This document shows, piece by piece, positions 925-52,510 of a stretch of 64,000 nt of DNA (the first letter of the stretch is position 1; the number at the start of each line of letters is the position of its first letter). Under the pieces are notes generated by a model. It was not told the origin of the DNA, did no database searches, and saw only the letters and a program-made list of their open reading frames with translations. Both the position numbers and the translations under genes were made by a program. The stretch is from assembly GCA_017355425.1 (NCBI GenBank), contig CP070233.1:4869501-4933500 (forward strand), written 5' to 3'. The stretch comes from Dolichospermum sp. DET69. GTDB taxonomy: Bacteria; Cyanobacteriota; Cyanobacteriia; Cyanobacteriales; Nostocaceae.

Positions 925-3900
925 ATGACGACTTTATATCAAAACTCAAATGAAGATGCTGGAAATGGTTTTACTACAGCACAAAGCGAAGAAAAAAAAC
1001 AAGGTAATGGCAATGGTGCTAATTATGATTCATCTAGTAAAAGTTTAATTGCTCAGGAATTTAAAATCTGGATACAGCGGTTTCAGGAAATAACCGCCAA
1101 AATGCGTCAAGTTCCAGATTTAGAGAAGTTATTAACTGTGACGGTAGCAGAAGTTAGAGATAAACTTGCTGGAGATGGCGAAGCGCCGCTGCGAGCAGAT
1201 CGCGTCTTAATTTATCAGTTTACCACAGATGATACTGGAACTGTTGTAGCCGAATCCAGAGCCAGCGGTTGGACACCGACAATTAATGAAAATCTGGCAG
1301 CTATTTTGTTTGGTGTCTATACCAGTCAAGATTATTTAGAACCTGTAATTATTGACGATATTAATCAAATTCAAGTCACTCCTTACCAAAAGCAGCTACT
1401 AGATAAATTTCAAGTTAGATCCAGTCTAAGTTTACCGATTTTTCTTGATAGTAAAGTATGGGGTTTATTAGTAGTTCATCGTTGTGGAGTACCTCGACAA
1501 TGGCAGGAAACAGAAACCACGCTTTTATCACAACTTGCCACAGAAATTACTTACAGAGTTCAGGGATTTAAATTACAAAGAGAACTGAAACAGTCTTCTC
1601 TAGCAAAGCAATCAGCAGCGAAAGTTATTACCAAGATTTTACAACAGCCAGATGTAGAAAAAATCTTTCAAACTACTACTCAAGAAGTCCGCCAATTATT
1701 GAAATGCCATCGCGTTGGTGTGTATCGTTTTAATGATGATTGGAGTGGGCAATTTGTCTCTGAATCTGTAGGTAATAATTGGGTAAAAGTGGTAACTCCC
1801 GGTTATCAAATGGTCTGGGAAGATACTCACCTCCAAGATACCAAAGGTGGTAGATATGCCAAAGGTGAAAGCTTTGTTGTTAACGACACCTATAAAGTTG
1901 GTTTAGATCAATGCCACATTGATATTTTAGAACAGTTTGAAGCTAAAGCTTATATCATTTCTCCCATCTTTTCTGGGGAAAAATTATGGGGTTTACTTGC
2001 AGCTTATCAAAATACCGGAGCGCGGGAATGGCAAGATTGGGAAGTAAGTTTTTTAAATCAGATTGGTTCACAATTTGGTGTGGCTGTTTCCCAAGGAGAA
2101 TATTTAGGAAAAGTTCAGAAACAAACAGAACAATTAGGACAAATAGCTAAACAAGAAAAAGCATTAACTCAGATAGTCAGTCGCATTAGACAATCCTTAG
2201 ATGTAGGAGAAATTTTTAAGATTGCTACCCAAGAAATGCGCCAGGTTTTGAAATGCGATCGCGTGGCAGTATTTAAATTTCACCCTGATTTTAGTGGCGA
2301 ATTTGTAGCAGAATCAGTAAGTCAAGGTTGGGTAAGATTAGTTGATACTGCACATAAAGAACTGGTTGAAGATACATTTTTGCAAGAAACTAAGGGAGCG
2401 CGATTTGCTCAGGGAGAAACAATTGCTGTTAATGATATCTATGCTGCCAATATTACTCCTTGCTATTTAGAATTGTTGGAACAATTTGAAGCCAAAGCTT
2501 ATATTACCGTTCCGATTTTCTTTGGTGATGAATTATGGGGTTTATTAGCGGTTTATCAAAATAGTAATTCTCGTGAATGGCAAACATCAGAAGTGAGTTT
2601 CTTGAGTCAAGTAGCTCTACAATTTAGTTTAGCAAAAACCCAGATAGATTATTTAACAGAACTCACAAAAAGAGCAGAAAAAGAAAAAGCTATTAATAGG
2701 ATTGTGAATAGAATTCGTCAATCCTTCGATACAGAAGAAATCTTCCGCACCACTACTCAAGAAATAAGAGCGGCTTTACAATGCGATCGCGTGGGAGTTT
2801 ATCAATTTCACCCTGATTGGAGTGGGACATTTATCGCTGAATCAGTAGGTAGTGGTTGGAAAAAAATAGTCACACCAGAATTCCAAATGGTCTGGACAGA
2901 TACCCACATCCAAGAAACCCAAGGTGGTAGATATGCTAAAGGGGAAAACTTTGTAGTTAATGACATTTATCAAGTCGGCCATGCTCAATGTCATATTGAG
3001 ATTTTAGAGCAGATTGAAGTCAAAGCCTATATAATTGTTCCCATCTTTTTTGAAGACAAATTATGGGGTTTGTTGGCGGCTTATCAAAACACGGGAACAA
3101 GAAAATGGCAAGAATCAGAAGTTAACTTTCTAGCGCAAATAGGCTTACAATTTAGCCTGGCTAAATCTCAAATTGATTATCTCGATAAATTACGAGAGCA
3201 ATCTGCAAAAATCGCCCAAGCAATTGAACAGGAAAAAACTTTCTCCAAAATAGTTAACCAAATTCGTCAATCCTTAAATAGTGGAATAGAGGAAATTTTC
3301 AAATCTACCACTCAGGATATCCGCCAACTCTTCAAATGCGATCGCTGTGCTGTCTATAAATTTACATCTGATTGGGGTGGTAACTTTGTTTCCGAATCAG
3401 TAGCCACAGGTTGGATAAAACTAGTTACACCTGAACTTAAAACCGCCTTTGATGATCCTTGCTTACAAGCAATTAAAGGCGGTGATTATAAGAAGGGTAA
3501 TAAATTAATAGTCAGTGACATTTATCAAGCCAGCTTTGATACTTGCTACATTGAACTATTAGAAGGGTTTGAAGCCAAAGCCTATGCAATTGTTCCTATC
3601 CTCTTCGGTGAAAAACTATGGGGACTATTGGCAGTTTATCAAAACTCCAGCACCCGTCATTGGCAAGAGTCAGAAACAAATCTGTTAGCGCGGATTGGGG
3701 ATCAGTTAGGACTAGCTTTGCAACAAACAGAGTTCTTGCAACAGTTACAAACCCAATCGGCTGAACTATCAGCAGCAGCAAGCAAAGAAAAAGCAGCTAA
3801 AGAACTACTCCAACAGCGTTCTATTCAACTGCTAATTGCTCTCAAACCTGCATTAAAAGGAGATTTAACAGTTCGCGCCCCCATTACAGAAGATGAAATA

Positions 3901-4992: not shown

Positions 4993-7900
4993 ATGATTAC
5001 AGATTCAGCAATTCGTGAACAAGGCTATGCCTATTTTCTGGGTGAAGCACCGGAATTGTTACAAACTATTGAACAAGATTTATTTACTTTAGTTGAAAGT
5101 CATAGCACAGCTAAAGTACATAACTTAATGCGAGCAACCCATACAATTAAGGGTGGAGCAGCCAATGTTGGACTAGATACCATCATGACAATTGCCCATT
5201 CTTTAGAAGATATTTTCAAGGCTTTATATAGTCCCAATGTCGTTATTGATGGTGAATTACAAGCCTTACTTATTGAAGGTTATGAATGTTTACAATTAGC
5301 AGTTATATCTGAAGTTACCAATAGTAATATTAATGCTGATGAACTTTTAAATCGAGCGACTACAGCATTTGCTCAAATTCAAGAAAAGTTAGGTGATGCT
5401 TTTGGGGCAGAAACACATATTCCTACATCAGAAGAATTAGGATTTGATATTGTTAAATCTATTTTTGAAGTAGGAGTTAAACAACGGATAGATAGTCTCA
5501 ATCAAGCTATTAATAATCCGCCAAATCCTAGTGAATTTTGTGAATTATTACACTCTCAAAGTGAAGTATTTATCGGGTTAGCAGAATCTTTAAATCTACC
5601 AGGATTGCAAAAACTAGCACGCACAATTATGGCGGCTGTGGATGGGAATCCTGAAAAAGTATTAGAAATTGCTAAAATAGCTTTTACTGATTTACAAGCA
5701 GCACAAAAAGCGGTATTAGCAGGCGATCGCACTTCCGGAGGTTCACCATCTTTAGAATTGCAAAAACTAGCAAATACAAATATTATAGATGATTCTGTCT
5801 CTGTTGTGGTTAAAACCAGCGCTTTAGCTATAGTACCAAAATATGAATCATCTCTAACATCTATACACCAATCTTTTGCCGAAACATTTTTTAATATTAC
5901 CACAGAATTTTATCAATTTTTAATTACTCTGAGTAATGGCAATCATGAACCCTTAAAGCCAATTCATGCCAAAATTTATTTAAAAGTAATTCGCTATATT
6001 TTTGGCTGGTTTAACCACTATAGAGAGATTCCAGAATTAGAACTAAATCTATCTTTATTAATTCCTCCATCTATTCAAAAATATCCCGTTAATTATCTAG
6101 AAAATTGGCTAGGGGAATTTTTCTACTTTATCGAAAATGAAACAGATAGTCAGTCTTTATCTCTTTATCGGCGGGGGATAATTCTAATTATTCTCCTAGC
6201 TATTGCCAAATTCCAATATACTGTTGAGCAAAATAATAGTGCTATCCCCATTATTAAAAGATTAAGACAGCAAATCCGCGAACTAGGTCAAGAATATAAA
6301 AAATATCCACAAGTCACTGAAGCCGAAAAAAAATGGCTTGATCATCATAAATTACAAAATTTATTAGTTATTAAAGAAATAGTTTCGTCATTATCACTCG
6401 AAGACAATAATAATCTCCTGGAATCAATATGGGGAGGAGAATCTATTTTAGATAATAATCCGGAAATAGTCTCTACACCAATCATAGAAACAGGAGAAAC
6501 TGTTAAACATGATAGTTATTTAGAAAGTGTGACATTATCAGCAGTCACTGAAGAGGTAATTACAGATGATGATTCTACAAGAATTAATCAGCAAGTAGAA
6601 GAAAAAACTACCGATTCTGTCAATAGAAACTCCCGTCAACCTTCCTTTGTGCGGGTAGATGTGGAAGGATTAGAACGCCTGAATTATCTCACAGGTGAAT
6701 TACTAATTTACCAAAAAAGGCGCAGTTTATACGATGACCAAGTTATAGAACTAATTGATAGATTAAGTCAGCAACTTAACCAACACCAACTTACTTTATA
6801 TCAATTACGGGACTTACCATTACAAGGTAATAATGTAATATCTCATAATAGCCAATCAGTGAGTAGCGTCAATTTTGATTCTTTAGAAATGGATATATAT
6901 TCAGAGTTTCAATTGATATTACACTCAGCAATGGAAGAAACTCTGCAAATACAAGAAACTTCTGAATCTCTAGAATTACTGATGAGACAAGCTGGTCAAA
7001 TCAGTGAGAAAAAACAGACTTTAACCCTAAATATTATAGATAACTTAGTAGAAGCGAGAATGTTACCTTTAGGAACTATCCTCAGTCGCTTCCCGCAAAT
7101 GGTGCAGAATCTAGCCAATGTTTATGGGAAACAGGTAGAATTGAAACTTACTGGTACAAAAGTTCTGGTTGATAAAGCGATCGCGGAAAAACTCTATGAT
7201 CCTTTATTACAACTGGTACGCAACTCTTTTGATCACGGCATTGAATCTCCAGAAATTCGCCGGGAAAGAGGTAAATCTGCACAAGGTATCATTGAAATTC
7301 GTGCCTATAATCAAGGTAGTCAAACTGTTATTGAAATTCATGATGATGGACAAGGTTTAAACTTAGAAAAAGTTCGTAGTAGAGCTATAGAACTGCATCT
7401 AATCCCCGATGATCATAGTGAAAATTATGTTCATCATCTCAGCGAATCCGAACTAATAGAGATGATGTTTGCTCCGGGATTTTCCACAGCGGGTAAAGTC
7501 AGTGAAATCTCTGGACGCGGTATGGGTTTAGATATTGTCCGTACCCAAATGCAATCACTTAACGGCTCAATTTCTGTGCAATCATCTCCTCATCAGGGAA
7601 CAACTTTTATCCTCAAAATTCCTTTCTCTATGACTACAGATAAACTCATGTTAGTTCAGGCAGGTGGTGTTATTTATGCTTTACTACAAGATAGTATTGA
7701 AAAAATAGTTATTCCCTCTGCTCAACAAATCAAAGAATTTGAAGGCAAACAATTTTTACATTGGCGTACAGATGACGAAGAATTAATGGTCAGCCTCCAA
7801 AAATTAGAGGAGTTAATGTATTATAATGGTGCAGTTCTGAGTACGAATAATCTCCAAAATCTCCGCGATAATTCAGAAGCAGGAATAGTCAAAAATCCTA

Positions 7901-8673
7901 TTCTTCTCCTCCGTCGTCATCAGGGAATGGTAGGAATAGAAGTTGATCAAATTATTGGGGAACAAGAATTAGTAATTAGACCTTTAGGAAGTTCTATTAC
8001 TCCACCAAAATACGTTTACGGTTGTAGTAGTTTAGCTAATGGTAACTTGATCTTAATTATTGACGGCACTATGCTGATTGATACTAAAGAAATGCAAGCA
8101 ACATTGGATGTCATGAGACTACCGATGACACCCCCAGCAAATCAACAATCTTTGCCAATGTCCAAGGAGATAATTTCCTCTACACCCTTAATTACTACAT
8201 CAACTCCTGGAACTAATACCCAAAAACAACTAACTGCTAATGTGTCAGGAAATAGCAAATCACCAAAGGTAATTTTAGTGGTAGATGATGCTATTAGTCT
8301 ACGGCAAACTCTTTCTCTGACTTTGCAAAAATCTGGCTATCAAGTATTACAAGCGCAAAATGGTGTAGAGGCTTTGGAACAGTTGCAGTTACATCCAGAA
8401 ATTGCCGTAGTTATCTCTGATTTAGAAATGCCAAAAATGAACGGATTTGAATTATTAAGCCATATCCGTCAAAATCCAGATTTTGCCAAAAAACCAGTTG
8501 TGGTTCTCACTTCTCGTAGCGCGGATAAACATCGTCAATTAGCTTACGAATTAGGGGCAAATTCTTATTTAACTAAACCCTATTTAGAACATGAATTTTT
8601 GTCCACTGTTGAGAGTTTAGCTAATATCATTAAAAATGATTCGACCCAGGAGCTAATAACAGCAGGGAAGTAA
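4993..8673 (+). CDS. cheA: CheA hybrid histidine kinase (Hpt, kinase core, CheW, receiver)
   Basis: 1226 residues. The Hpt domain (1-130) has His50 in ATHTIKGGAANVG. A long low-similarity middle follows, then the P3 dimerisation and CheA ATPase region (about 553-880) with N-box NSFDHGIESPE (around 742), DGQGLN and GRGMGLDIV (around 841), a CheW-like regulatory domain (about 880-1035) and a C-terminal receiver (about 1095-1215) with Asp1143 in VVISDLEMPKMNG. All kinase motifs look intact. It should phosphorylate its own receiver and the operon's CheY-like protein in response to the GAF receptor. The stop codon TAA sits in AAGTAATGAGGTCTGAAC, so the first unit of the repeat array starts at the end of this gene. 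Confidence 0.93.
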   Translation: MITDSAIREQGYAYFLGEAPELLQTIEQDLFTLVESHSTAKVHNLMRATHTIKGGAANVGLDTIMTIAHSLEDIFKALYSPNVVIDGELQALLIEGYECLQLAVISEVTNSNINADELLNRATTAFAQIQEKLGDAFGAETHIPTSEELGFDIVKSIFEVGVKQRIDSLNQAINNPPNPSEFCELLHSQSEVFIGLAESLNLPGLQKLARTIMAAVDGNPEKVLEIAKIAFTDLQAAQKAVLAGDRTSGGSPSLELQKLANTNIIDDSVSVVVKTSALAIVPKYESSLTSIHQSFAETFFNITTEFYQFLITLSNGNHEPLKPIHAKIYLKVIRYIFGWFNHYREIPELELNLSLLIPPSIQKYPVNYLENWLGEFFYFIENETDSQSLSLYRRGIILIILLAIAKFQYTVEQNNSAIPIIKRLRQQIRELGQEYKKYPQVTEAEKKWLDHHKLQNLLVIKEIVSSLSLEDNNNLLESIWGGESILDNNPEIVSTPIIETGETVKHDSYLESVTLSAVTEEVITDDDSTRINQQVEEKTTDSVNRNSRQPSFVRVDVEGLERLNYLTGELLIYQKRRSLYDDQVIELIDRLSQQLNQHQLTLYQLRDLPLQGNNVISHNSQSVSSVNFDSLEMDIYSEFQLILHSAMEETLQIQETSESLELLMRQAGQISEKKQTLTLNIIDNLVEARMLPLGTILSRFPQMVQNLANVYGKQVELKLTGTKVLVDKAIAEKLYDPLLQLVRNSFDHGIESPEIRRERGKSAQGIIEIRAYNQGSQTVIEIHDDGQGLNLEKVRSRAIELHLIPDDHSENYVHHLSESELIEMMFAPGFSTAGKVSEISGRGMGLDIVRTQMQSLNGSISVQSSPHQGTTFILKIPFSMTTDKLMLVQAGGVIYALLQDSIEKIVIPSAQQIKEFEGKQFLHWRTDDEELMVSLQKLEELMYYNGAVLSTNNLQNLRDNSEAGIVKNPILLLRRHQGMVGIEVDQIIGEQELVIRPLGSSITPPKYVYGCSSLANGNLILIIDGTMLIDTKEMQATLDVMRLPMTPPANQQSLPMSKEIISSTPLITTSTPGTNTQKQLTANVSGNSKSPKVILVVDDAISLRQTLSLTLQKSGYQVLQAQNGVEALEQLQLHPEIAVVISDLEMPKMNGFELLSHIRQNPDFAKKPVVVLTSRSADKHRQLAYELGANSYLTKPYLEHEFLSTVESLANIIKNDSTQELITAGK

Positions 8674-10030
8674 TGAGGTCTGAACTATGATTTGTGTGAT
8701 TTACCTGATTTGGATGATTTTTTGCAAAAGTCATTCTAGCTAGAAGCGTAATGAGGTCTGAACTATGATTTGTGTGATTTACCTGATTTGGATGATTTTT
8801 TGCAAAAGTCATTCTAGCTAGAAGCGTAATGAGGTCTGAACTATGATTTGTGTGATTTACCTGATTTGGATGATTTTTTTGGCAGAAGTCATTCTAGCTA
8901 GAAGCGTAATGAGGTCTGAACTATGATTTGTGTGATTTACCTGATTTGGATGATTTTTTTGGCAGAAGTCATTCTAGCTAGAAGCGTAATGAGGTCTGAA
9001 CTATGATTTGTGTGATTTACCTGATTTGGATGATTTTTTTGGCAGAAGTCATTCTAGCTAGAAGCGTAATGAGGTCTGAACTATGATTTGTGTGATTTAC
9101 CTGATTTGGATGATTTTTTTTGGCAGAAGTCATTCTAGCTAGAAGCGTAATGAGGTCTGAACTATGATTTGTGTGATTTACCTGATTTGGATGATTTTTT
9201 TGGCAGAAGTCATTCTAGCTAGAAGCGTAATGAGGTCTGAACTATGATTTGTGTGATTTACCTGATTTGGATGATTTTTTTGGCAGAAGTCATTCTAGCT
9301 AGAAGCGTAATGAGGTCTGAACTATGATTTGTGTGATTTACCTGATTTGGATGATTTTTTTGGCAGAAGTCATTCTTAGCTAGAAGCGTAATGAGGTCTG
9401 AACTATGATTTGTGTGATTTACCTGATTTGGATGATTTTTTTGGCAGAAGTCATTCTTAGCTAGAAGCGTAATGAGGTCTGAACTATGATTTGTGTGATT
9501 TACCTGATTTGGATGATTTTTTTGGCAGAAGTCATTCTTAGCTAGAAGCGTAATGAGGTCTGAACTATGATTTGTGTGATTTACCTGATTTGGATGATTT
9601 TTTTGGCAGAAGTCATTCTAGCTAGAAGCGTAATGAGGTCTGAACTATGATTTGTGTGATTTACCTGATTTGGATGATTTTTTTGGCAGAAGTCATTCTT
9701 AGCTAGAAGCGTAATGAGGTCTGAACTATGATTTGTGTGATTTACCTGATTTGGATGATTTTTTTGGCAGAAGTCATTCTTAGCTAGAAGCGTAATGAGG
9801 TCTGAACTATGATTTGTGTGATTTACCTGATTTGGATGATTTTTTTGGCAGAAGTCATTCTTAGCTAGAAGCGTAATGAGGTCTGAACTATGATTTGTGT
9901 GATTTACCTGATTTGGATGATTTTTTTGGCAGAAGTCATTCTTAGCTAGAAGCGTAATGAGGTCTGAACTATGATTTGTGTGATTTACCTGATTTGGATG
10001 ATTTTTTTGGCAGAAGTCATTCTTAGCTAG
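8671..10030. repeat. Tandem array 1, left arm: about 17 units of 80-81 bp, core in plus orientation
   Basis: About 17 near-identical units. Each consists of AGCTAGAAGCGTAATGAG, then the core TCTGAACTATGATTTGTG, a T-rich part (GATTTACCTGATTTGGATGA), and GGCAGAAGTCATTCT. Units differ mainly in the length of the T run and in one extra T (ATTCT versus ATTCTT). The first unit overlaps the cheA stop codon. There are no variable spacers, so this is not CRISPR. When a unit is 81 bp the minus strand stays open by chance, giving a repetitive reading frame that is not a gene. The inner part has a 9-bp rhythm (TGATTTxxx). Confidence 0.95.
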
Positions 10031-11690
10031 AAGCATGAGTCAGATAAATCACATAAATCAAAAAAATCAAAAAAATCATAGTTCAGATGATGATTTTTTG
10101 CAGAAGTCATTCTAGCTAGAAGCATGAGTCAGATAAATCACATAAATCACATAAATCAAAAAAATCATAGTTCAGATGATGATTTTTTTGGCAGAAGTCA
10201 TCCTAACTAGAAGCATGAGTCAGATAAATCACATAAATCAAAAAAATCAAAAAAATCATAGTTCAGATGATGATTTTTTGCAGAAGTCATTCTAGCTAGA
10301 AGCATGAGTCAGATAAATCACATAAATCACATAAATCAAAAAAATCATAGTTCAGATGATGATTTTTTTGGCAGAAGTCATCCTAACTAGAAGCATGAGT
10401 CAGATAAATCACATAAATCAAAAAAATCAAAAAAATCATAGTTCAGATGATTTTTTTTGGCAGAAGTCATCCTAACTAGAAGCATGAGTCAGATAAATCA
10501 CATAAATCAGAAAAATCATAGTTCAGATGATGATTTTTTGCAGAAGTCATTCTAGCTAGAAGCATGAGTCAGATAAATCACATAAATCACATAAATCAAA
10601 AAAATCATAGTTCAGATGATGATTTTTTGCAGAAGTCATTCTAGCTAGAAGCATGAGTCAGATAAATCACATAAATCACATAAATCAAAAAAATCATAGT
10701 TCAGATGATGATTTTTTTGGCAGAAGTCATCCTAACTAGAAGCATGAGTCAGATAAATCACATAAATCAAAAAAATCAAAAAAATCATAGTTCAGATGAT
10801 GATTTTTTGCAGAAGTCATTCTAGCTAGAAGCATGAGTCAGATAAATCACATAAATCACATAAATCAAAAAAATCATAGTTCAGATGATGATTTTTTTGG
10901 CAGAAGTCATCCTAACTAGAAGCATGAGTCAGATAAATCACATAAATCAAAAAAATCAAAAAAATCATAGTTCAGATGATTTTTTTTGGCAGAAGTCATC
11001 CTAACTAGAAGCATGAGTCAGATAAATCACATAAATCAGAAAAATCATAGTTCAGATGATGATTTTTTGCAGAAGTCATTCTAGCTAGAAGCATGAGTCA
11101 GATAAATCACATAAATCACATAAATCAAAAAAATCATAGTTCAGATGATGATTTTTTGCAGAAGTCATTCTAGCTAGAAGCATGAGTCAGATAAATCACA
11201 TAAATCACATAAATCAAAAAAATCATAGTTCAGATGATGATTTTTTTTGCAGAAGTCATCCTAACTAGAAGCATGAGTCAGATAAATCACATAAATCACA
11301 TAAATCAAAAAAATCATAGTTCAGATGATGATTTTTTTTTGCAGAAGTCATCCTAACTAGAAGCATGAGTCAGATAAATCACATAAATCACATAAATCAA
11401 AAAAATCATAGTTCAGATGATGATTTTTTGCAGAAGTCATTCTAACTAGAAGCATGAGTCAGATAAATCACATAAATCAAAAAAATCATAGTTCAGATGA
11501 TGATTTTTTGCAGAAGTCATTCTAACTAGAAGCATGAGTCAGATAAATCACATAAATCACATAAATCAAAAAAATCATAGTTCAGATGATGATTTTTTTG
11601 GCAGAAGTCATTCTAGCTAGAAGCATGAGTCAGATAAATCACATAAATCACATAAATCAAAAAAATCATAGTTCAGATGATGATTTTTTA
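10031..11690. repeat. Tandem array 1, right arm: about 19 units of 80-90 bp, core inverted
   Basis: About 19 units containing GCATGAGTCAGATAAATCAC, a variable number of 9-bp pieces (AAATCACAT or AAATCAAAA), then AATCATAGTTCAGA (reverse complement of the left-arm core), GATGATTTTTT, and GCAGAAGTCATTCTAGCTAG. The spacer GCAGAAGTCATTCTAGCTAG has the same orientation as in the left arm, so only the core is flipped. The array ends about 95 bp past the stop codon of rpiA, which is on the minus strand and convergent with cheA. Confidence 0.95.
10212..11269. repeat. 529-bp six-unit block duplicated in tandem inside the right arm
   Basis: The stretch 10212-10740, which has a distinctive order of unit variants (including a shortened unit with AAATCAGAAAAATCATAG), is repeated at 10741-11269 with the same order. 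Comparing the two by eye I find only a small change in a T run near 11240. This shows a recent duplication of six units at once. Confidence 0.85.
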
Positions 11691-11701
11691 AAAAAGTGAA
11701 A

Positions 11702-11783
11702 AAGAATGTAGAGACATTCCATGGAACGTCTCTACAAGGGTTTCAGGTCACGTATATTTAATTTTCACCAGATGTCTAATAAT
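11702..11783. repeat. Dispersed palindromic element, copy 1 (TGTAGAGACATTCCA type)
   Basis: A 30-bp palindrome (11707-11736) with a longer conserved flank down to about 11783. The same element, in opposite orientation, is at about 40688-40775. Shared sequence includes AAGAATGTAGAGAC, ATGGAACGTCTCTACAAGGG and an ACCAGATxTCTAAT tail. It lies between the array and the end of rpiA, where it could help end rpiA transcription. Confidence 0.75.
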
Positions 11784-12494
11784 TTAAAGCTGTCTGACTA
11801 CAGGTTTACCGTCAATAACTTCACCAACAAGAACGATATCTGCACAATTGACGAAAATACCATTTTCCAAAACACCAGGAATGTTATTCAGTGTTTTTTC
11901 CAGGTTTGCAGGATCATCAATACTATCGAATGTCACATCTAAAACCATATTACCTTGGTCAGTGATGACAGGACCTGCTTTTCTCACACCCATTCGCAAT
12001 TCTGGCTTACCACCAAGGGCTTTAATGGCATTAGTGACGGGGGTAAGTGCCATAGGGATGACTTCTACAGGCACAGCAAAACTAGAACCCAGTTTATCTA
12101 CTAATTTACCACCATCAACAACAACAATAAACTGTGCTGCAAGATAATCTACTACTTTTTCGCGGGTATGTGCTGCACCACCACCTTTAATCAAGTTTTT
12201 GTGAGGATCTACTTCATCAGCGCCATCTATGGCAATATCAATATGATCTACAGCGTCTAAAGTGGTGAGGGGAACGCCATACTCTTTAGCTAACACTTCT
12301 GATTGAAACGAAGTGGGGATACCGACAATATCTTTGAGTTCCCCTGATTTGAGACGTTCTCCTAAATACTGAATCGTGTAAGCTGTGGTTGAACCAGTAC
12401 CCAAACCAACTATAGAACCGGATTTTACTAAATTGGCAGCGGCTTTGCCAACTTCTTGCTTCATCAATTTTACGGGATCTGCTGGTATGGACAT
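11784..12494 (-). CDS. rpiA: Ribose-5-phosphate isomerase A
   Basis: 236 residues, the usual RpiA length. It interconverts ribose 5-phosphate and ribulose 5-phosphate in the cytoplasm, for the pentose phosphate and Calvin cycles. Family motifs: [10 protein letters not shown] (phosphate binding, about residue 31), [19 protein letters not shown] (catalytic Asp and Lys region) and [10 protein letters not shown]. It starts at an ATG with GGAGTT just upstream. It is convergent with cheA across repeat array 1. No sign of damage. Confidence 0.96.
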
Positions 12495-15868: not shown

Positions 15869-17545
15869 TTAATTAGTCCCATTAAACCTGGGTATAGCAG
15901 TTTCCGCTGGTATTGGGGTTTCCGTTGGTGTGGGAGTTTCCCTTGGTGTGGGAGTTTCCCTTGGTGTAGGAGTTTCCCTTGGTGTAGGAGTTTCCGTTGG
16001 TATGGGAGTTTCCGTTGGTGTGGGGGTTTCCCTTGGTGCAGGAGTTTCCGTTGGTGTTGCTGCCTCTATTGCCACATTCAAACTATAGTTAACATCCGAA
16101 ACACCTCCAGACAAACCTAATTGAATAATATATTTCCCATCATTGGCTAATATTCCCTCATAAGATGTAGATTGTGGATCTTGAGTATTAATAATTTCAC
16201 GATCAGCCGTTAAAATCGTCAGCACAATACCACTGTTTTCATTTACAGATACAATTAATTTTTCCCCGCTCTTACCCCGAAAACTATATTGAACTAATTC
16301 ATTTTCCTTCAGTATCCCGTCAACTTTCGCCTGGTTAGATTTGTCTAATCTCAGACGTTGGCTATTAATCACAGGTTCACTATTAGTTTCTATGGGTGTT
16401 GGGGTTGGTGTTAATGTTGTGCCACTAGGAATAACTGGGGAAGGAAAGGATTGTGGCGTTGTGATTGTTTCTCCTGCTGGGCGAGACTGACTTTTCAGTG
16501 AATTCACTAAAGTCCAAGAACCAAATCCTGCTAAAATAATCACAATACAGCCAATTCCTCCCAACGCCCAAGTGTTATCCAAAATAGAGCTACTTTGGCT
16601 AGAATCAACGGAAGGTTGCGGCTTTTCAGATATTTTTGATATAGGTTGAGGACGATGACCGACGGCGATAGTTTGTAGGTGAGATAAATTAGCAGCCGGT
16701 TGACGAGTATAGCCTGTGTTGAGCAGTGCTTGAGTAACATCAGCCGCACTTTGATAGCGTTCCCCTGGCAGATAACTCAACATTCGCTGCAAAACTTGAG
16801 CAAATTCTGGTTTCACCGTTGCCCATTGTTGCCAATTCCAAGTTAGTTGCTGCTCATCAAATAAATCTGTCGGTTCTTTCCCCGTCAACAAAACAATGGC
16901 CGTCACAGCCAATGCATACAAATCACTACTAGGATATGCTCTACCTGTTTGCATTTGTTCACTAGGCGCGTAACCCAATTTACCTACAGTAGTAACTGGT
17001 GTAGGGCTTGAGGATTGTAATTTTGTGGCTAATTCCTTTACTACCCCAAAGTCAATTAATACAGGCAGGAAATCATTTTCCCGTAGAATTATATTTTCTG
17101 GGGATATATCTCGATGAATAATTCCTTGACCGTGAATATAACTAAGAACAGGTAATAAAGTACCTAGTAAATGCAATACATCTGCTTCAGTCAAAGTTGT
17201 CCCCACGTCTTGGCGTTCTCTGAGCAAATTGCGGTAAGTTTTACCAGCTACAAAATCTTGCACCAAAAATAACTTTTCGTTTTGGGCAAATTTTTCTCGA
17301 AATTTGGGAATTTGGGGATGTTCAATTTGATACAAGATAGCAGCTTCTCGCTCAAATAATTCTTGTGCTTTCTGCCCACTATCTGTTCCTGTGATTGGGG
17401 CAATTAATTCCTTCAGCACACAAAGCTCATTAAATCGTCTTTGGTCTTCTGCTAGATAGGTTCTACCAAATCCCCCCTGGCCAATAATGTGAATTATGTG
17501 GTAACGATTTTGTAGGATAGTACCAACTGTAATCGGTGATTGCAT
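15869..17545 (-). CDS. Membrane-anchored Ser/Thr protein kinase with PPC-like domain and Pro/Thr-rich tail
   Basis: 558 residues. The N-terminal kinase (14-275) has GQGGFGRTY (P-loop), Lys45 in CVLKEL, HRDISPENI (145-153) and DFG (165-167), so it should be active. One transmembrane helix (about 327-349) is followed by a pre-peptidase-C-like beta domain (about 397-495) and a TPTPTE/TPTPRE repeat tail (497-552). The topology suggests a cytoplasmic kinase with an outside sensor domain. The tail is coded by an 18-bp tandem repeat (about 15890-16060) and is likely to vary in length between strains. The role is unknown. Confidence 0.9.
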   Translation of the reverse strand: MQSPITVGTILQNRYHIIHIIGQGGFGRTYLAEDQRRFNELCVLKELIAPITGTDSGQKAQELFEREAAILYQIEHPQIPKFREKFAQNEKLFLVQDFVAGKTYRNLLRERQDVGTTLTEADVLHLLGTLLPVLSYIHGQGIIHRDISPENIILRENDFLPVLIDFGVVKELATKLQSSSPTPVTTVGKLGYAPSEQMQTGRAYPSSDLYALAVTAIVLLTGKEPTDLFDEQQLTWNWQQWATVKPEFAQVLQRMLSYLPGERYQSAADVTQALLNTGYTRQPAANLSHLQTIAVGHRPQPISKISEKPQPSVDSSQSSSILDNTWALGGIGCIVIILAGFGSWTLVNSLKSQSRPAGETITTPQSFPSPVIPSGTTLTPTPTPIETNSEPVINSQRLRLDKSNQAKVDGILKENELVQYSFRGKSGEKLIVSVNENSGIVLTILTADREIINTQDPQSTSYEGILANDGKYIIQLGLSGGVSDVNYSLNVAIEAATPTETPAPRETPTPTETPIPTETPTPRETPTPRETPTPRETPTPTETPIPAETAIPRFNGTN

Positions 17546-25669: not shown

Positions 25670-27160
25670 ATGGTAACTTCAAAAAATAAATTATTTACTC
25701 CCCAACATGATGGGAATTCCCCAAATACAAAGGAAGAACAACGGCTACAAGCATTATTAAACCTGGATTTACGACAATCGGAAATGATTCCGGTATTTGA
25801 AGAAGCTGCTCAAACTGCTGCTCACTTTTTAGAAGTGGAAATTGCGATTTTGGGATTTATTGATCAAAAATTTCATTGGTTCAAATCAGCGGTAGGCTTA
25901 TCTCGGTTAGGATTAATGAATGATTTGGCTCGTAAACGCCAACTTTTGCGTCGGGAGTCATTTTGCTCTCAGGTAGTAGAAACTTCGCAAAGCTTAGTAA
26001 TTAATGATATAAGCAAAGAAACGAATTCTTTGATCAAAGATAGTATATTAGTAAGAAATTATGGGATTAGCGCATATTTGGGAGCACCCTTAATTGATGC
26101 AAATGGTAACTGCTTAGGTACATTAGCAGTTATGTCTCGCCAACCTCGTAATTTTACAAACCGCGATATTGAGTTTTTACAAATAGTTGCGCGTTGGAGC
26201 ATGAGTGAATTTGAGCGCAACCGATTATTACAAAACAACCCAGCAGCAGAGAATAGTAAATCTAAGCTCGAATTTTCACTTTTAGAAGAGCAAATAATTG
26301 ATTTGAAAATTACTCCTCCTGTTGTGAAAACAGATTTTAATTTCAATCAACAAATTAAATTAGAACTTTTAAATCAGATAATTCAGGAGTTACGCACACC
26401 ATTAACATCTATATTAGGTATGGCTGGTGTCTTAGAAAGAGAAATTTATGGACTTTTGACAACTAAGCAAAGAGAATATTTAGAAATTATCGAACATAGT
26501 GGACGGTATGTACTTTCTTTAGTTAATGAAATTACGGAATTAGACGCAACTAATGAAAATTCTTATTTGATAAATTTAGTCCCTGTTTATATTGAAATGC
26601 TCTGTCAACAGGTTATTAATACTTTAGAGGAATTAGCTATCCGTCGTGAGCAAAATATTCGCCTATCTATTGAACCAGGACACAATCGCCTTTTATCGTT
26701 AGATAAGGATAAGGTACGACAAATTCTGTACAATTTGATTTTCAGCGTGATTCAAGTTTCTGCTATTGGTAGTATAGTAAGAATTCACGTTACTTATAAA
26801 TTAGATACACTATGTGTAACGGTGTGGGTATCTCACCCTGATTTAAAAGATGGTGTTAACAATTGTGATTCTTATTTTTACCTAAATTCTTTACCAATTG
26901 AGTCTGGGGTAGATAACCATAGTTATAATCATGATTACACAGAAAAACCCCTCAACCTTGATATGTTCGGTAATACTTCATTCGATAAATTGGGGAAGTT
27001 ATCTGCTGCTATTTCTCGTGAGAAATTAGGACTTTTCTTGAGTTGTCATTTAGCAGAATTACATAATGGACAAATTTCTATTCAAGGTTCACCAGAGTCA
27101 GGATACCGTTATGTGCTATCTTTGCCATTAAAGTTTGCGACTTCTTCAGCAAATAGCTGA
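25670..27160 (+). CDS. GAF-domain histidine-kinase-like protein with degenerate kinase core
   Basis: 496 residues. A GAF domain (about 45-185) is followed by a HisKA-like dimerisation segment, II-Q-ELRTPLTSILGMAG, where Gln239 stands in the place of the phospho-acceptor His. The ATPase region is also weak: the N-box (QILYNLIFSVIQ) lacks the usual Asn-Ala core and no DxGxG is seen, while LGLFLSCHLAELHNG near the end keeps the shape of the G2 region. It is probably a pseudokinase that senses or scaffolds. The stop TGA lies in GCTGAACTATGATTT, the first core of repeat array 2. Confidence 0.88.
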   Translation: MVTSKNKLFTPQHDGNSPNTKEEQRLQALLNLDLRQSEMIPVFEEAAQTAAHFLEVEIAILGFIDQKFHWFKSAVGLSRLGLMNDLARKRQLLRRESFCSQVVETSQSLVINDISKETNSLIKDSILVRNYGISAYLGAPLIDANGNCLGTLAVMSRQPRNFTNRDIEFLQIVARWSMSEFERNRLLQNNPAAENSKSKLEFSLLEEQIIDLKITPPVVKTDFNFNQQIKLELLNQIIQELRTPLTSILGMAGVLEREIYGLLTTKQREYLEIIEHSGRYVLSLVNEITELDATNENSYLINLVPVYIEMLCQQVINTLEELAIRREQNIRLSIEPGHNRLLSLDKDKVRQILYNLIFSVIQVSAIGSIVRIHVTYKLDTLCVTVWVSHPDLKDGVNNCDSYFYLNSLPIESGVDNHSYNHDYTEKPLNLDMFGNTSFDKLGKLSAAISREKLGLFLSCHLAELHNGQISIQGSPESGYRYVLSLPLKFATSSANS

Positions 27161-27757
27161 ACTATGATTTATGTGATTAATATGATTTATCGCGGTTGGT
27201 GGGAAAAGTAGTCAAAAATTACATCTGAACTGTGATTTATATGATTTATGTGATTAATATGATTAATCCTTCTTGGTGGGGAAAGTAGTCAGAAATCACA
27301 TCTGAACTATGATTTATATGATTTATATGATTTATGTGATTAATATGATTAATCCTTCTTGGTCGGAAAAGTAGTCAGAAATCACATCTGAACTATGATT
27401 TATATGATTTATGTGATTAATATGATTAATCCTTCTTGGTCGGAAAAGTAGTCAGAAATCACATCTGAACTATGATTTATATGATTTATATGATTTATAT
27501 GATTTATATGATTTATATGATTTATATGATTTATATGATTTATGTGATTAATATGATTAATCCTTCTTGGTCGGAAAAGTAGTCAGAAATCACATCTGAA
27601 CTATGATTTATATGATTTATGTGATTAATATGATTAATTCTTCTTGGTCGAGAAAGTAGTCAGAAATCACATCTGAACTATGATTTATATGATTTATGTG
27701 ATTAATATGATTAATATGATTAATATGATTAATCCTTCTTGGTGGGGAAAGTAGTCA
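27157..27757. repeat. Tandem array 2, left arm: about 7 units, core in plus orientation
   Basis: Units of about 70-130 bp. Each has the core TCTGAACTATGATT, a run of 9-bp pieces (TGATTTATA, TGATTAATA), then CCTTCTTGGTSGGGAAAGTA and GTCAGAAATCACA. The 9-bp run expands to about eight TGATTTATA copies at 27472-27545. The first core supplies the stop codon of the kinase-like gene. Confidence 0.93.
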
Positions 27758-28785
27758 AACACTCATAAAAATCACATAAATCACACAAATCATAGTTCAG
27801 AAGTTGATGATTAATCCTTCTTGGTGGGGAAAGTAGTCAAACACTCATAAAAATCAGATAAATCACACAAATCATAGTTCAGAAGTTGATGATTAATCCT
27901 TCTTGGTGGGGAAAGTAGTCAAACACTCATAAAAATCAGATAAATCACACAAATCATAGTTCAGAAGTTGATGATTAATCCTTCTTGGTGGGGAAAGTAG
28001 TCAAACACTCATAAAAATCAGATAAATCACACAAATCATAGTTCAGAAGTTGATGATTAATCCTTCTTGGTGGGGAAAGTAGTCAAACACTCATAAAAAT
28101 CAGATAAATCACACAAATCATAGTTCAGAAGTTGATGATTAATCCTTCTTGGTGGGGAAAGTAGTCAAACACTCATAAAATCACATAAATCACACAAATC
28201 ATAGTTCAGAAGTTGATGATTAATCCTTCTTGGTGGGGAAAGTAGTCAAACACTCATAAAAATCAGATAAATCACACAAATCATAGTTCAGAAGTTGATG
28301 ATTAATCCTTCTTGGTCGGGAAAGTAGTCAAACACTCATAAAAATCACATAAATCACACAAATCATAGTTCAGAAGTTGATGATTAATCCTTCTTGGTCG
28401 GGAAAGTAGTCAAACACTCATAAAAATCACATAAATCACACAAATCATAGTTCAGAAGTTGATGATTAATCCTTCTTGGTGGGGAAAGTAGTCAAACACT
28501 CATAAAAATCACATAAATCACACAAATCATAGTTCAGAAGTTGATGATTAATCCTTCTTGGTCGGGAAAGTAGTCAAACACTCATAAAAATCACATAAAT
28601 CACACAAATCATAGTTCAGAAGTTGATGATTAATCCTTCTTGGTGGGGAAAGTAGTCAAACACTCATAAAAATCACATAAATCACACAAATCATAGTTCA
28701 GAAGTTGATGATTAATCCTTCTTGGTGGGGAAAGTAGTCAAACACTCATAAAAATCACATAAATCACACAAATCATAGTTCAGAA
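27758..28785. repeat. Tandem array 2, right arm: about 13 units of 82 bp, core inverted
   Basis: Units: GATTAATCCTTCTTGGTG, GGGAAAGTAGTCAAACACTC, ATAAAAATCAGATAAATCAC, then AATCATAGTTCAGAAGTT. The spacer CCTTCTTGG...GTAGTCA has the same orientation as in the left arm while the core is reversed. The last core contains the stop codon of the CLC gene on the minus strand (28780-28782). Units are nearly identical, with small G/C swaps (GGTGGGG or GGTCGGG) and AGAT/ACAT changes. Confidence 0.95.
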
Positions 28786-31389
28786 ATTTGCGCTTCTTAC
28801 CAAAATTACGGTACTATCAACACCAGAGGCAATTTCTTCAGGAATGTTCCCTTGAATGGCTTGTTGTAATAATCCTTCACGGGAAGCACCTAAAACAACA
28901 ACGTCGAAACCTTCAGTTTTAACTAATTCAATTACTCCCTCTGCGACTGATTCTGCTTGTAAAGATGCCGCAACAACGTTACTGTGTAAATTACGATTAC
29001 GCATTAATTGGCGCGTAGATTCTTCTAAAACTGTCATATCTGGTGCAGTTTCCCAAGGTTTCACTACCTGAGTTAAACGAATTTCTGTATCATTTTCTAG
29101 AGTTACTAAAGCTGGTAATAACTTAATGGCTATTGGTGCATTCGGACCCCCAGCCATTGGTACTAACCACCGTTTAAATTGCTGACAGGAATGGAAATTA
29201 TTCCCTAATTTCACTAAGACAACATCACAGTTTGCTTGACGAATTACTGTATCTACAACATTACCAAAAATCCTACCGGGGGTAGATGTATTTCCCTTCC
29301 AACCCATGAAAATTAAATCTATATATCGTTCCTTGGTGGTTTCTAAAATTGCTTGGGCGATATCATGGGCAATACGAATCTGGGTATGAATAGGAATCTG
29401 CCATTTTTTGGCTAAAACTTCTGCATTCCTGAGTAACCGACGACTTTTTGCCGTATTTATCTGGGTTTCGGCAGGAGAACTATGACGAGATACAAGGATG
29501 ATTTGTAAACATTCTATTTCATAATGGCGATCGCGGGCAATTGCCGCAGCTATTTCTAATAATGCAGGGGCAGTTTCTGGGTTAGCAATGGTGACTAATA
29601 ATCTACCTCTGCCAATACTAGGAGAACGAGTTTGGTAAACTACATAAGAAGGTTCTGGTTGGGGACCTCTCACCCCATTTTCGCCATTCAAATGATCTGC
29701 TTCTGCGCGAATAATATCGGCACGGGTAATAATCCCAATTAATTTTTTTCCATCTACCACAGGTAAACGGCTAATTTTATATCTATCTAATAAATAGAGA
29801 ACATGACTTAATCTATCTGCTGGTGATACTGTCACCGGCTTGGGTGTCATAATCTCTTTTAAAAGAGTTTCATGGGGTAAAAGATGATCACGGATTTTTT
29901 GTAAATCTGTTTGGGAAACTAATCCCACTAACTTATTATTCTCGACGACAGGAAACCCGCGATGATGGGAAAGAGAAAAAGCTTTAATAACTTCATCTCC
30001 TGTCATTTCGGCTTCTAAAGTTTCCACTGTACGCTGCATGACATCCTGAGCAGTTAACTGTGTTAATATCCCCTCAGTTTTAGCATCTTTTTTCAGAATA
30101 ATGCCATTTAATTTTAAAAGTTTGTCATAGAGTGAACCAGGAACAACCTTCTCAGCTACTAGATAAGATGTCACAGATACCACCATTAAAGGTAATACTA
30201 AATTGAAATCTGTCGTCATTTCAAAAACAATCACAATCGCAGTCATGGGAACTTTGGAAACTGCGCTAAAAAATCCCCCCATTCCTACTAATGCGTAGGT
30301 AGTCGGTGAACCAATTCCAAATATTTGTAATTCACAGACACCAATAATATGTCCTAAGCAAGAACCTAAAATTAAACTGGGTGCAAATAATCCCCCAGGT
30401 GCGCCCGAACCAAAGGCAATTAAGGTTAAGATAAATTGGGCAATAAAAGCGATCGCTGCTAAAGGTATATTTGGTTCACTGGCAATCATAAACTCCCGCA
30501 AACCTGTATTATCCCGAAAGTGTTCCGGAAGCAAAGCGATAATTAAACCAGAAGCCAAACCGGCTATTGCCACCCGCAACGGTAAACTGATATGTAACCG
30601 ACTATAAGCTTGAATACTGAAAATTAATCCCTGATTAAATAAAGCTGCCAATAAACCTGTCAAAATTCCTAAAATTAATAAAATGGGAATTTCTAATAGG
30701 GAAAAACTGCTAGAGTGCTTAATTATTTCCAAGTCTAGTTGCAGACTTCCACCACCTAACCAGCGGGAAATTACGCCACCAATAAACGAAGCAATAATTG
30801 CTGTTCCTAATGTTAAGCCGGATAAATCTTGTAATAACTCTTCAATAATAAATAGTACCCCCGCTAGAGGGGCATTAAAAGCCGCTGCCAACCCTGCACC
30901 AGCCCCCGCTGCAATCATTTGACGGCGGTGATCTGGAGATGTGGGAACTAAGCGACTCATTCCCGCTGCTAACCCCGCACCTACCTGAACTGTAGGCCCT
31001 TGTCTTCCCAAGGTTAATCCTGAACCCAAGGCGATGATGGCACTAATTAGCTTGACAAAAGCAACTCGCCATGATAATTTAATTGGCACGTTTGCCAGAC
31101 AGGCTTTAACTTGGGGAATCCCACTACCAGCCGCTTCTGGTGCTAATCGCTGGACTAACCAACCGGATAAAAACCCCAGGGTCAAACCAATAAGTGGTAA
31201 AGTTATCCATGGGGGTAGTTCATGTTCTTGTAATATGTGGGTTGTATGCACTCGCCATGTTCCCAACCACCCTGAACCTTGTTTAAGTAATACCGCAGAT
31301 AAGGCGGCTACTATCCCAATTACGGAAGCTTCTGCTATGGCTAAACCCCTTCTCGGTTGCCAAAAGTTACGAAAGTGATTGGTTAGCAT
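28780..31389 (-). CDS. CLC-family chloride channel/transporter with CBS pair and two Usp domains
   Basis: 869 residues. The membrane CLC domain (about 15-440) has AAGSGIPQVK (88-95), GLTLGRQGPTVQVGAG (125-140) and GSGAPGGLFAPSLILG. The usual gating Glu of GREGP is Gln130 here. A CBS pair (about 455-575) has the typical ...GFPVVENNKLVGLVSQTDL and RLPVVDGKKLIGIITRADI. Two universal-stress-like domains follow (about 600-730 and 740-869). CLC proteins move Cl- across the membrane, some with H+ exchange. The stop codon is within the last repeat of array 2. It starts 7 bp after pmbA, so the two are probably co-transcribed. Confidence 0.92.
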   Translation of the reverse strand: MLTNHFRNFWQPRRGLAIAEASVIGIVAALSAVLLKQGSGWLGTWRVHTTHILQEHELPPWITLPLIGLTLGFLSGWLVQRLAPEAAGSGIPQVKACLANVPIKLSWRVAFVKLISAIIALGSGLTLGRQGPTVQVGAGLAAGMSRLVPTSPDHRRQMIAAGAGAGLAAAFNAPLAGVLFIIEELLQDLSGLTLGTAIIASFIGGVISRWLGGGSLQLDLEIIKHSSSFSLLEIPILLILGILTGLLAALFNQGLIFSIQAYSRLHISLPLRVAIAGLASGLIIALLPEHFRDNTGLREFMIASEPNIPLAAIAFIAQFILTLIAFGSGAPGGLFAPSLILGSCLGHIIGVCELQIFGIGSPTTYALVGMGGFFSAVSKVPMTAIVIVFEMTTDFNLVLPLMVVSVTSYLVAEKVVPGSLYDKLLKLNGIILKKDAKTEGILTQLTAQDVMQRTVETLEAEMTGDEVIKAFSLSHHRGFPVVENNKLVGLVSQTDLQKIRDHLLPHETLLKEIMTPKPVTVSPADRLSHVLYLLDRYKISRLPVVDGKKLIGIITRADIIRAEADHLNGENGVRGPQPEPSYVVYQTRSPSIGRGRLLVTIANPETAPALLEIAAAIARDRHYEIECLQIILVSRHSSPAETQINTAKSRRLLRNAEVLAKKWQIPIHTQIRIAHDIAQAILETTKERYIDLIFMGWKGNTSTPGRIFGNVVDTVIRQANCDVVLVKLGNNFHSCQQFKRWLVPMAGGPNAPIAIKLLPALVTLENDTEIRLTQVVKPWETAPDMTVLEESTRQLMRNRNLHSNVVAASLQAESVAEGVIELVKTEGFDVVVLGASREGLLQQAIQGNIPEEIASGVDSTVILVRSANF

Positions 31390-34929: not shown

Positions 34930-35370
34930 GCGGTAAGTGGGAAACTCAGTGGCTTGGCTCCCTGAGAGGGAAACGACACGAGCGGTAATAAAGGCTTTGA
35001 ATCTTTTTTCATTACCGCCTTGGAGTTAAGAAATTTGGGGTACTTTTGTGATGTACTTTCAACGGGACAATTACCGATTCAAATTTCTTAACTCTGTACG
35101 CATAATGTGTTGCACGCGATGTGCCTCCCATTTCTGGGGTAATGTTAGCAACGACTGCGTTATAAGAGCTTGAAAGAAAGAGCAACACTGTTCCAGTGAC
35201 CTTAGAACTGTTTAATCACAAGCGACAGAGCAGGGAACTAGCTTCGGATTCGGTGGGTGTCGTGACTCAAATAACGGCTACCCTGAGACTATACTCAGGG
35301 TAGTCTGGTCAGTACAGCTTGTTTGATTTCTCTTGCAAGCTCAGTCCCTTTAGGGCTGGGTTACTGACAT
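34930..35370 (+). ncRNA. Structured non-coding stretch, candidate RNA of unknown class
   Basis: No credible reading frame. It contains an 8-bp stem GCGGTAAT/ATTACCGC (34982-35018), a perfect 15-bp stem GAGTTAAGAAATTTG/CAAATTTCTTAACTC (35023-35037 with 35080-35094), a 10-bp stem CTACCCTGAG/CTCAGGGTAG with a 6-base loop (35278-35303), and a multi-branched 3-prime end closed by GTCAGTA/TTACTGAC. Known rnpB, tmRNA, SRP and 6S sequences do not match what I can recall. It is higher in GC than its surroundings. Strand is uncertain because stems are symmetrical. Confidence 0.4.
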
Positions 35371-52267: not shown

Positions 52268-52271
52268 TAGT

Positions 52272-52378
52272 TACAGCGGTTTCCGCTTTTATGAGGTACA
52301 AAGTTGAATCATGAAACTCTTGTAGTGCGGGCATCTTGCCCGCTAGATATGTACCTCATAACACCGGGAAGTGCTGTA
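52272..52378. mobile_element. MITE-like element, copy 2
   Basis: Same ends as at 24942 (TACAGCGGTTTCCGCT, ATGAGGTAC; GTACCTCATAACACCGGG, GTGCTGTA), interior GTGCGGGCATCTTGCCCGC. Flanked by TA. Confidence 0.72.
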
Positions 52379-52379
52379 T

Positions 52380-52486
52380 TACAGCAGATTTCGCTCTAAT
52401 GAGGTACAAACTTGAACTATGAAACTATTGTAGTGCGGGCATCTTGCCCGCTGGATATGTACCTCATAACACCGGAAAGTGCTGTA
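52380..52486. mobile_element. MITE-like element, copy 3, in tandem with copy 2
   Basis: A second, slightly diverged element head to tail with copy 2 (TACAGCAGATTTCGCT...CACCGGAAAGTGCTGTA). The two share an almost equal interior, so tandem duplication or insertion next to an older copy is likely. Confidence 0.72.
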
Positions 52487-52510
52487 TGATGTTTATAAAC
52501 TCAGCTAAAT

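Follow-up and report, generated by a model that had tools for sequence, protein, structure and literature searches.

A mirror-symmetric repeat array in Dolichospermum sp. DET69, probably amplified from a GxxExxY-associated palindromic element

Between two convergent open reading frames (ORFs) of Dolichospermum sp. DET69 lies a tandem array in which a short core runs in one orientation through the left half and in the opposite orientation through the right half, yet the spacer that joins successive cores never turns. How could an array come to invert one part of its repeat and not the other? Here "the window" denotes the whole stretch of 64,000 nucleotides that was analyzed (contig CP070233.1, positions 4,869,501 to 4,933,500), and coordinates refer to it unless stated otherwise. 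We find that the array, at 8670-11689, is built on one imperfectly palindromic unit, a left end (L), a spacer (S) and a right end (R), that is dispersed in this genome and in others, and that such ends can bracket a gene of the GxxExxY family. The array is probably the product of tandem amplification of a palindromic mobile element that lacks a gene but has the ends of GxxExxY, a PD-(D/E)XK nuclease.

The array and its palindromic unit

The original prediction described 36 units with mirror-symmetric cores, and the exact counts bear this out: the left half holds 17 copies of TCTGAACTATGATT (first start 8679, last 9963) and the right half 19 copies of AATCATAGTTCAGA (first start 10074, last 11664). 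The flipped core is the reverse complement of the forward core, as expected of the arms of a palindrome. The spacer motif AGTCAT[TC]CT+A[GA]CTAGAAGC occurs 35 times in forward orientation, 17 times on the left and 18 on the right, and no reversed copy was found in the array; the midpoint was examined for a flipped spacer and showed none, and both core orientations are indeed joined to one and the same spacer orientation. The layout is (L S)n(R S)mR, with R the inverted L. Cores follow one another at 78-81 bp on the left and 80-92 bp on the right, where longer periods of ~180 and 349 bp are also seen. These features and those of a second array in the window are as follows.

4993-8673, + strand: ORF upstream of the array (cheA is the label of the original prediction only)
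8670-10034, + strand: left arm, 17 tandem units of L end and spacer (from tandem-repeat rows and core and spacer counts)
9963-10087 (genome 4879463-4879587), no strand: L-S-R unit at the junction, 125 bp, presumed to have the ancestral seed's form
10035-11689, - strand: right arm, in which 19 R cores (inverted L) alternate with the spacer, its orientation unchanged (boundaries from tandem-repeat rows)
11784-12494, - strand: convergent ORF downstream of the array (rpiA is likewise the earlier label only)
25670-27160, + strand: ORF, its end overlapping the second array on the left
27156-28784, no strand: second mirror array with another spacer: 7 L cores, of which two have one mismatch, followed by 13 R cores
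27672-27801, no strand: L-S-R junction of the second array
28780-31389, - strand: convergent ORF, its end overlapping the second array on the right

That the first array fills the gap between its convergent neighbors holds on the left, where 5 bp separate the stop codon from the first core, and fails on the right, where 106 bp with a different short repeat inside lie between the last core and the ORF. This other repeat, at 11696-11784, adjoins the right end of the array and has many 80-95% similar copies in the genus. The mirror design is not unique to 8670-11689: both window arrays lie between convergent ORFs, and a third array (L265; 5 L, 8 R) follows the same plan with other units.

The source genome (G000; 6.04 Mb, 2 contigs) contains 336 exact cores, 169 and 167 in the two orientations, against no exact copy of a reversed control pattern, and the number of cores is therefore more than chance. 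An L end consists of TCTGAACTATGATT followed by TGATT about every 9 nt, with R its inverted copy; 12 aligned units, two of them from other phyla, keep TCTGAACT and then TGAT at 9-nt steps, with the mirror image at the right end. Among 26 clusters placed in this genome, two are single L-S-R units, six are alternating L-S-R arrays, eight have L copies followed by R copies, six have L only and four R only. Every intermediate type of array is thus present, and one palindromic unit, its parts repeated differently, accounts for them, provided that the ten one-armed clusters lost an arm or that arms also spread separately. At another locus (L040, ~2911-3025) an L core is seemingly split by a different short element (TCTGAACTA ... 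TGATT), a nested insertion.

Comparison with close relatives strongly indicates that a single L-S-R seed stood at the array locus. In G002, which is 94.7% and 96.7% identical to the source genome at the two array flanks (300 bp each), the locus reads L-S-R-S, with one L copy, up to the contig end. Among relatives with both flanking genes listed, these genes are on different contigs or, in G005, ~0.7 Mb apart, so that an empty site cannot be read at this locus, and two sites at L044 were compared instead across 14 relatives. At site b the repeat unit is the 3' end of a host gene plus an L end, present in 10 copies in the source genome, 2 in G002 and 1, degenerate, in G004, with no copy in the other 12 of the 14. 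At site a, four relatives have the L-S-R copy (G002, G272, G179, G010), four keep only a relic of R (G009, G005, G012, G008) and six show no copy. Close relatives thus differ in copy number, and host DNA can serve as the spacer.

A GxxExxY gene between the ends

The original prediction proposed a search of other Nostocales for the core; this was run on 195 genomes of the order, found it in 21, and led beyond the order. By record titles, and among the matches listed, TCTGAACTATGATTTNNNTGATT occurs in Bacteroidota, Planctomycetes, Ignavibacteriota, Chloroflexi, Cyanobacteria, Leptospiraceae, Thiotrichaceae and others; eight plasmid records have a match and no phage record does. The cross-phylum set comprises at least 119 loci, examined as the first 80 and the other 39, with at least 34 and at least 13 gene-less L-S-R units, respectively. 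Where L and R stand further apart, a gene appears between them: among the matches listed, a GxxExxY-like gene lies in 14 of 15 L..R intervals of 450-620 bp (13 loci) versus 2 of 29 of other lengths, and in the first 80 loci alone in 13/13 versus 1/20. One copy among the 450-620 bp intervals (L111) is decayed. All seven interval proteins scanned match TIGR04256 and PF13366, and the protein has a PD-(D/E)XK-type fold with the E...D...ExK residues present; the best Foldseek match has an E of 1.3e-3, and a sequence search of the PDB gave no match at E <= 1. In the source genome itself a GxxExxY gene, at locus L035 (3043-3438), has an L end on one side and an array of L-S-R units on the other. Its reading frame runs into the next L core and takes its stop codon from there; E84 and K86 are predicted active-site residues of its protein.

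Scored with a profile built from four core-flanked proteins, the family divides into group A (~180 bits and up in the first sets) and group B (58-107 bits, one at 133). The split is not clean everywhere: cyanobacterial loci fall between the two groups, at 154-179 bits, and show end motifs of other kinds or no motif. In loci fetched by family from core-carrying genomes, the core is found within 180 bp of 10/15 A versus 0/15 B genes, and of 6/11 A genes when four loci shared with the core-selected set are removed. The idea that every GxxExxY gene of the genus group has the core proved wrong: among 20 such loci, exact cores stand only at the source genome's own gene, and L046 has a single core with 2 mismatches. 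In a sample from the phylum of G213 (59 returned loci, 58 after removal of one duplicate), inverted repeats scoring >= 30 flank 22/32 A and 17/26 B genes, versus 0/30 and 1/24 for control flanks 800 bp away. Group B has different ends, for example TTAACCACAGAGGACACAGAG-like and TAATAGAACGCGGAT-like motifs; B genes at L235, L216, L214, L217, L224 and L229 are bounded by inverted repeats of CACAGAG and CGCGGAT types. B-type ends presumably resemble common bacterial repeats, which is our impression. Lag-9 identity is 0.344 near versus 0.275 far for A ends, and 0.312 versus 0.295 for B ends, where lags 10 and 12 are raised too; nine-nt stepping as a rule for all GxxExxY ends was accordingly dropped, and we claim it firmly for A only.

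The similarity of the ends tracks that of the proteins (Mantel r of 0.50 over 39 loci, 0.41 within A and 0.37 within B; p 5e-4 each), which shows that gene and ends travel together. Of the 12 genomes of the order that encode a strong A protein (E <= 1e-60), 6 have cores, versus 15 of the 183 that do not (p 5e-4, 195 genomes); some single core matches may be chance, since the reversed control matches 5/195 genomes. The A protein of the source genome is 64-84% identical to 11 proteins of other phyla, the highest from Bacteroidota metagenome-assembled genomes, and in a tree of 53 A proteins the 14 cyanobacterial ones fall in several places, with six changes, at least four of them forced by well-supported branches (the bootstrap is rough).

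The outer ends are also unevenly placed. Based on crude ORF calling (90 aa or more), 15 of the 26 outer ends that face a gene's 3' end either overlap it or come within 10 bp, where 6.5 are expected from uniform placement in the same gap, and none of 20,000 simulations reached 15; for outer ends facing a 5' end the figure is 2/15, with 3.5 expected. An overlapping outer end may itself supply the gene's stop. In other phyla, many A genes, read by eye, have a stop codon to one side and an ATG to the other. Also by eye, the group A elements at L070, L072, L073, L203, L126 and L091 seem to lie exactly between neighboring genes, some of them type I restriction-like.

Weighing the explanations

Most likely, then, the array is a gene-less relative of a GxxExxY element, similar to a miniature inverted-repeat transposable element (MITE), that settled at a gene end and was then amplified. 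A number of observations weigh against this interpretation. Ten of the 26 clusters in the source genome are incomplete, L only or R only, and these need arm loss or separate arm spread. One right-sized L..R interval (L158) is without a GxxExxY gene, and 10/32 A and 9/26 B genes have no inverted repeat above the cut-off. The L-S-R-S of G002 lies at a contig end in a 530-contig assembly and could be a collapsed repeat. No target duplication is evident at the two L044 sites in the 14 relatives, and no exact excision was seen among the relatives compared. Placement at stop codons may reflect survival rather than targeting, and gene and ends would co-diverge through shared inheritance in any case, so that their co-divergence is no proof of recognition. 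In the order-wide comparison, a looser cut-off (E <= 1e-35) gives a weaker association (7/27 versus 14/168, p 0.013), both cut-offs were picked after the scores were seen, and G188 (22 cores) and G200 (12 cores) have no A protein at E <= 1e-35.

The closest known parallel is the RAYT/REP/REPIN system, in which, as described in two papers (PMC2817692, PMC3116915), a Y1 transposase gene is flanked by inverted repeats that co-diverge with the protein, many gene-less palindromes exist per gene, and inverted pairs with a spacer can fold. The same traits recur here: inverted repeats flank the GxxExxY gene, ends and protein co-diverge, core presence follows the gene with the exceptions G188 and G200, and there are gene-less palindromes and inverted pairs with a spacer. 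So similar a layout raises the possibility that another enzyme, an IS200/RAYT Y1 or a DDE transposase, spreads the palindromes and that GxxExxY is a passenger. The 16 Y1 matches in the source genome and the two genomes with cores and no A protein speak for it, but no core (<=1 mismatch) lies within ~1.5 kb of any of the 16 Y1 loci (DDE transposases were not searched), which led us to reject Y1 as the mobilizer, and the occupancy of element-sized L..R intervals by GxxExxY, 14/15 among the matches listed, also counts against it; we regard this explanation as unlikely. Since the partner gene belongs to PF13366/TIGR04256, a PD-(D/E)XK family, and is not a Y1 (HUH) transposase, and since no Y1 gene of this genome is near a core, the GxxExxY system works like RAYT/REPIN but is no member of it. 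Its ends differ too in being A+T-rich and 9-nt stepped, in forming large tandem arrays and in occurring in many phyla. RAYT/REPIN palindromes reportedly carry a GTAG or CGTC tag at one end, and neither tag is in the end consensus here (26 own and 98 cross-phylum ends).

Somewhat less probable still is that the repeats are structures serving the host at the 3' ends of genes, as bidirectional terminators or mRNA stabilizers, with the GxxExxY link secondary. The enrichment of outer ends at stop codons, the placement of both window arrays between convergent genes, and RNA folding of single units, where six of six fold well (z -4.4 to -12.8), would all fit. Presence is patchy among close relatives, however, the core is found in just 21/195 genomes of the order, the stem is A+T-rich, and many units lie elsewhere, 15 outer ends facing gene 5' ends. 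Nor are the arms of one element specially complementary: in the source genome their match is no better than that between arms taken from different elements (15 units, p = 0.99), and across phyla the effect is weak (34 units, p = 0.018). These results favor an end motif read by a protein over a paired stem, and leave the giant hairpin that the two arms of the array had been predicted to form unsupported as a selected function.

We agree with the original prediction that simple unequal crossing-over cannot flip the core alone. Its remedy, either a pair of seeds oriented independently or some mechanism acting to invert the core by itself, starts from the two core orientations joined to one spacer orientation and is very improbable, as one L-S-R unit suffices: single units occur at L031, L036 and in other phyla, G002 has L-S-R-S at the array locus, and the same plan recurs, with different spacers, in the second array and at L265. 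An assembly artefact is hardly credible, long near-identical repeats being hard to assemble but the genome having 2 contigs and many independent arrays with distinct spacers, and G002 the same array ends at both flanks.

The proposed MITE-like origin can be set beside known elements. MITEs, including those of Anabaena sp. 90, are short, intergenic and gene-less and share inverted ends with a gene-bearing form, according to PMC3542288 and PMC10969869; the gene-less units here similarly have the terminal inverted repeats of the GxxExxY-bearing element. They differ from MITEs in a partner gene that is no known transposase and in internally periodic ends, and no target duplication was seen at the two L044 sites compared. 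BrickBuilt of Porphyromonas gingivalis, a MITE with a minisatellite, also has tandem repeats inside an intergenic inverted-repeat element (PMC4596501), but there a 23-nt unit is repeated, without a spacer, between a leader and a tail, whereas here the ends themselves, with a spacer or a host gene end, are repeated in two inverted blocks.

Elsewhere, the window has one Rfam match, a HEARO RNA (RF02033, 99 bits) at 35139-35368 on the - strand; an 18-bp tandem repeat at 15899-16057, in the C-terminal coding part of a kinase-like ORF (15869-17545, - strand), encoding PTPRET-type protein repeats; and a 108-bp sequence repeated twice at 52271-52487, with TACAGCAG/CTGTA-like ends.

A proposed route to the mirror array and its meaning

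To account for the array, we infer a mechanism of cutting, mobilization and amplification. The GxxExxY nuclease would recognize and cut its own cognate ends, moving its own gene, and would also mobilize gene-less L-S-R copies in trans; the copies would settle or survive at gene boundaries, where an end can provide a stop codon. As the arms are mutually inverted, slippage or unequal crossing-over between direct repeats inside one arm would multiply L-S and R-S separately. From an L-S-R-S seed, tandem duplication of L-S would give the left arm and duplication of S-R the right arm, so that the core flips at the middle and the spacer does not. Site b of L044, with 1, 2 and 10 copies, offers a natural series for studying such tandem amplification.

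A wider proposal, for which we see the case as evenly balanced, is that GxxExxY nucleases mobilize a broad, unnamed class of bacterial elements, each subfamily reading its own inverted stepped ends, spreading gene-less palindromes in trans and placing them at gene boundaries, with the mirror array a tandem amplification of such ends. A search of openly accessible papers found no description of a link between GxxExxY and repeats, and almost nothing in print on GxxExxY; the evidence suggests a type of mobile repeat that is largely undescribed. A common nuclease family, GxxExxY, thereby gains a testable role, tied to intergenic repeats in many phyla. If the proposal is true, its elements would live in the manner of RAYT/REPIN by unrelated means, as a second such solution, their ends tending to adjoin stop codons.

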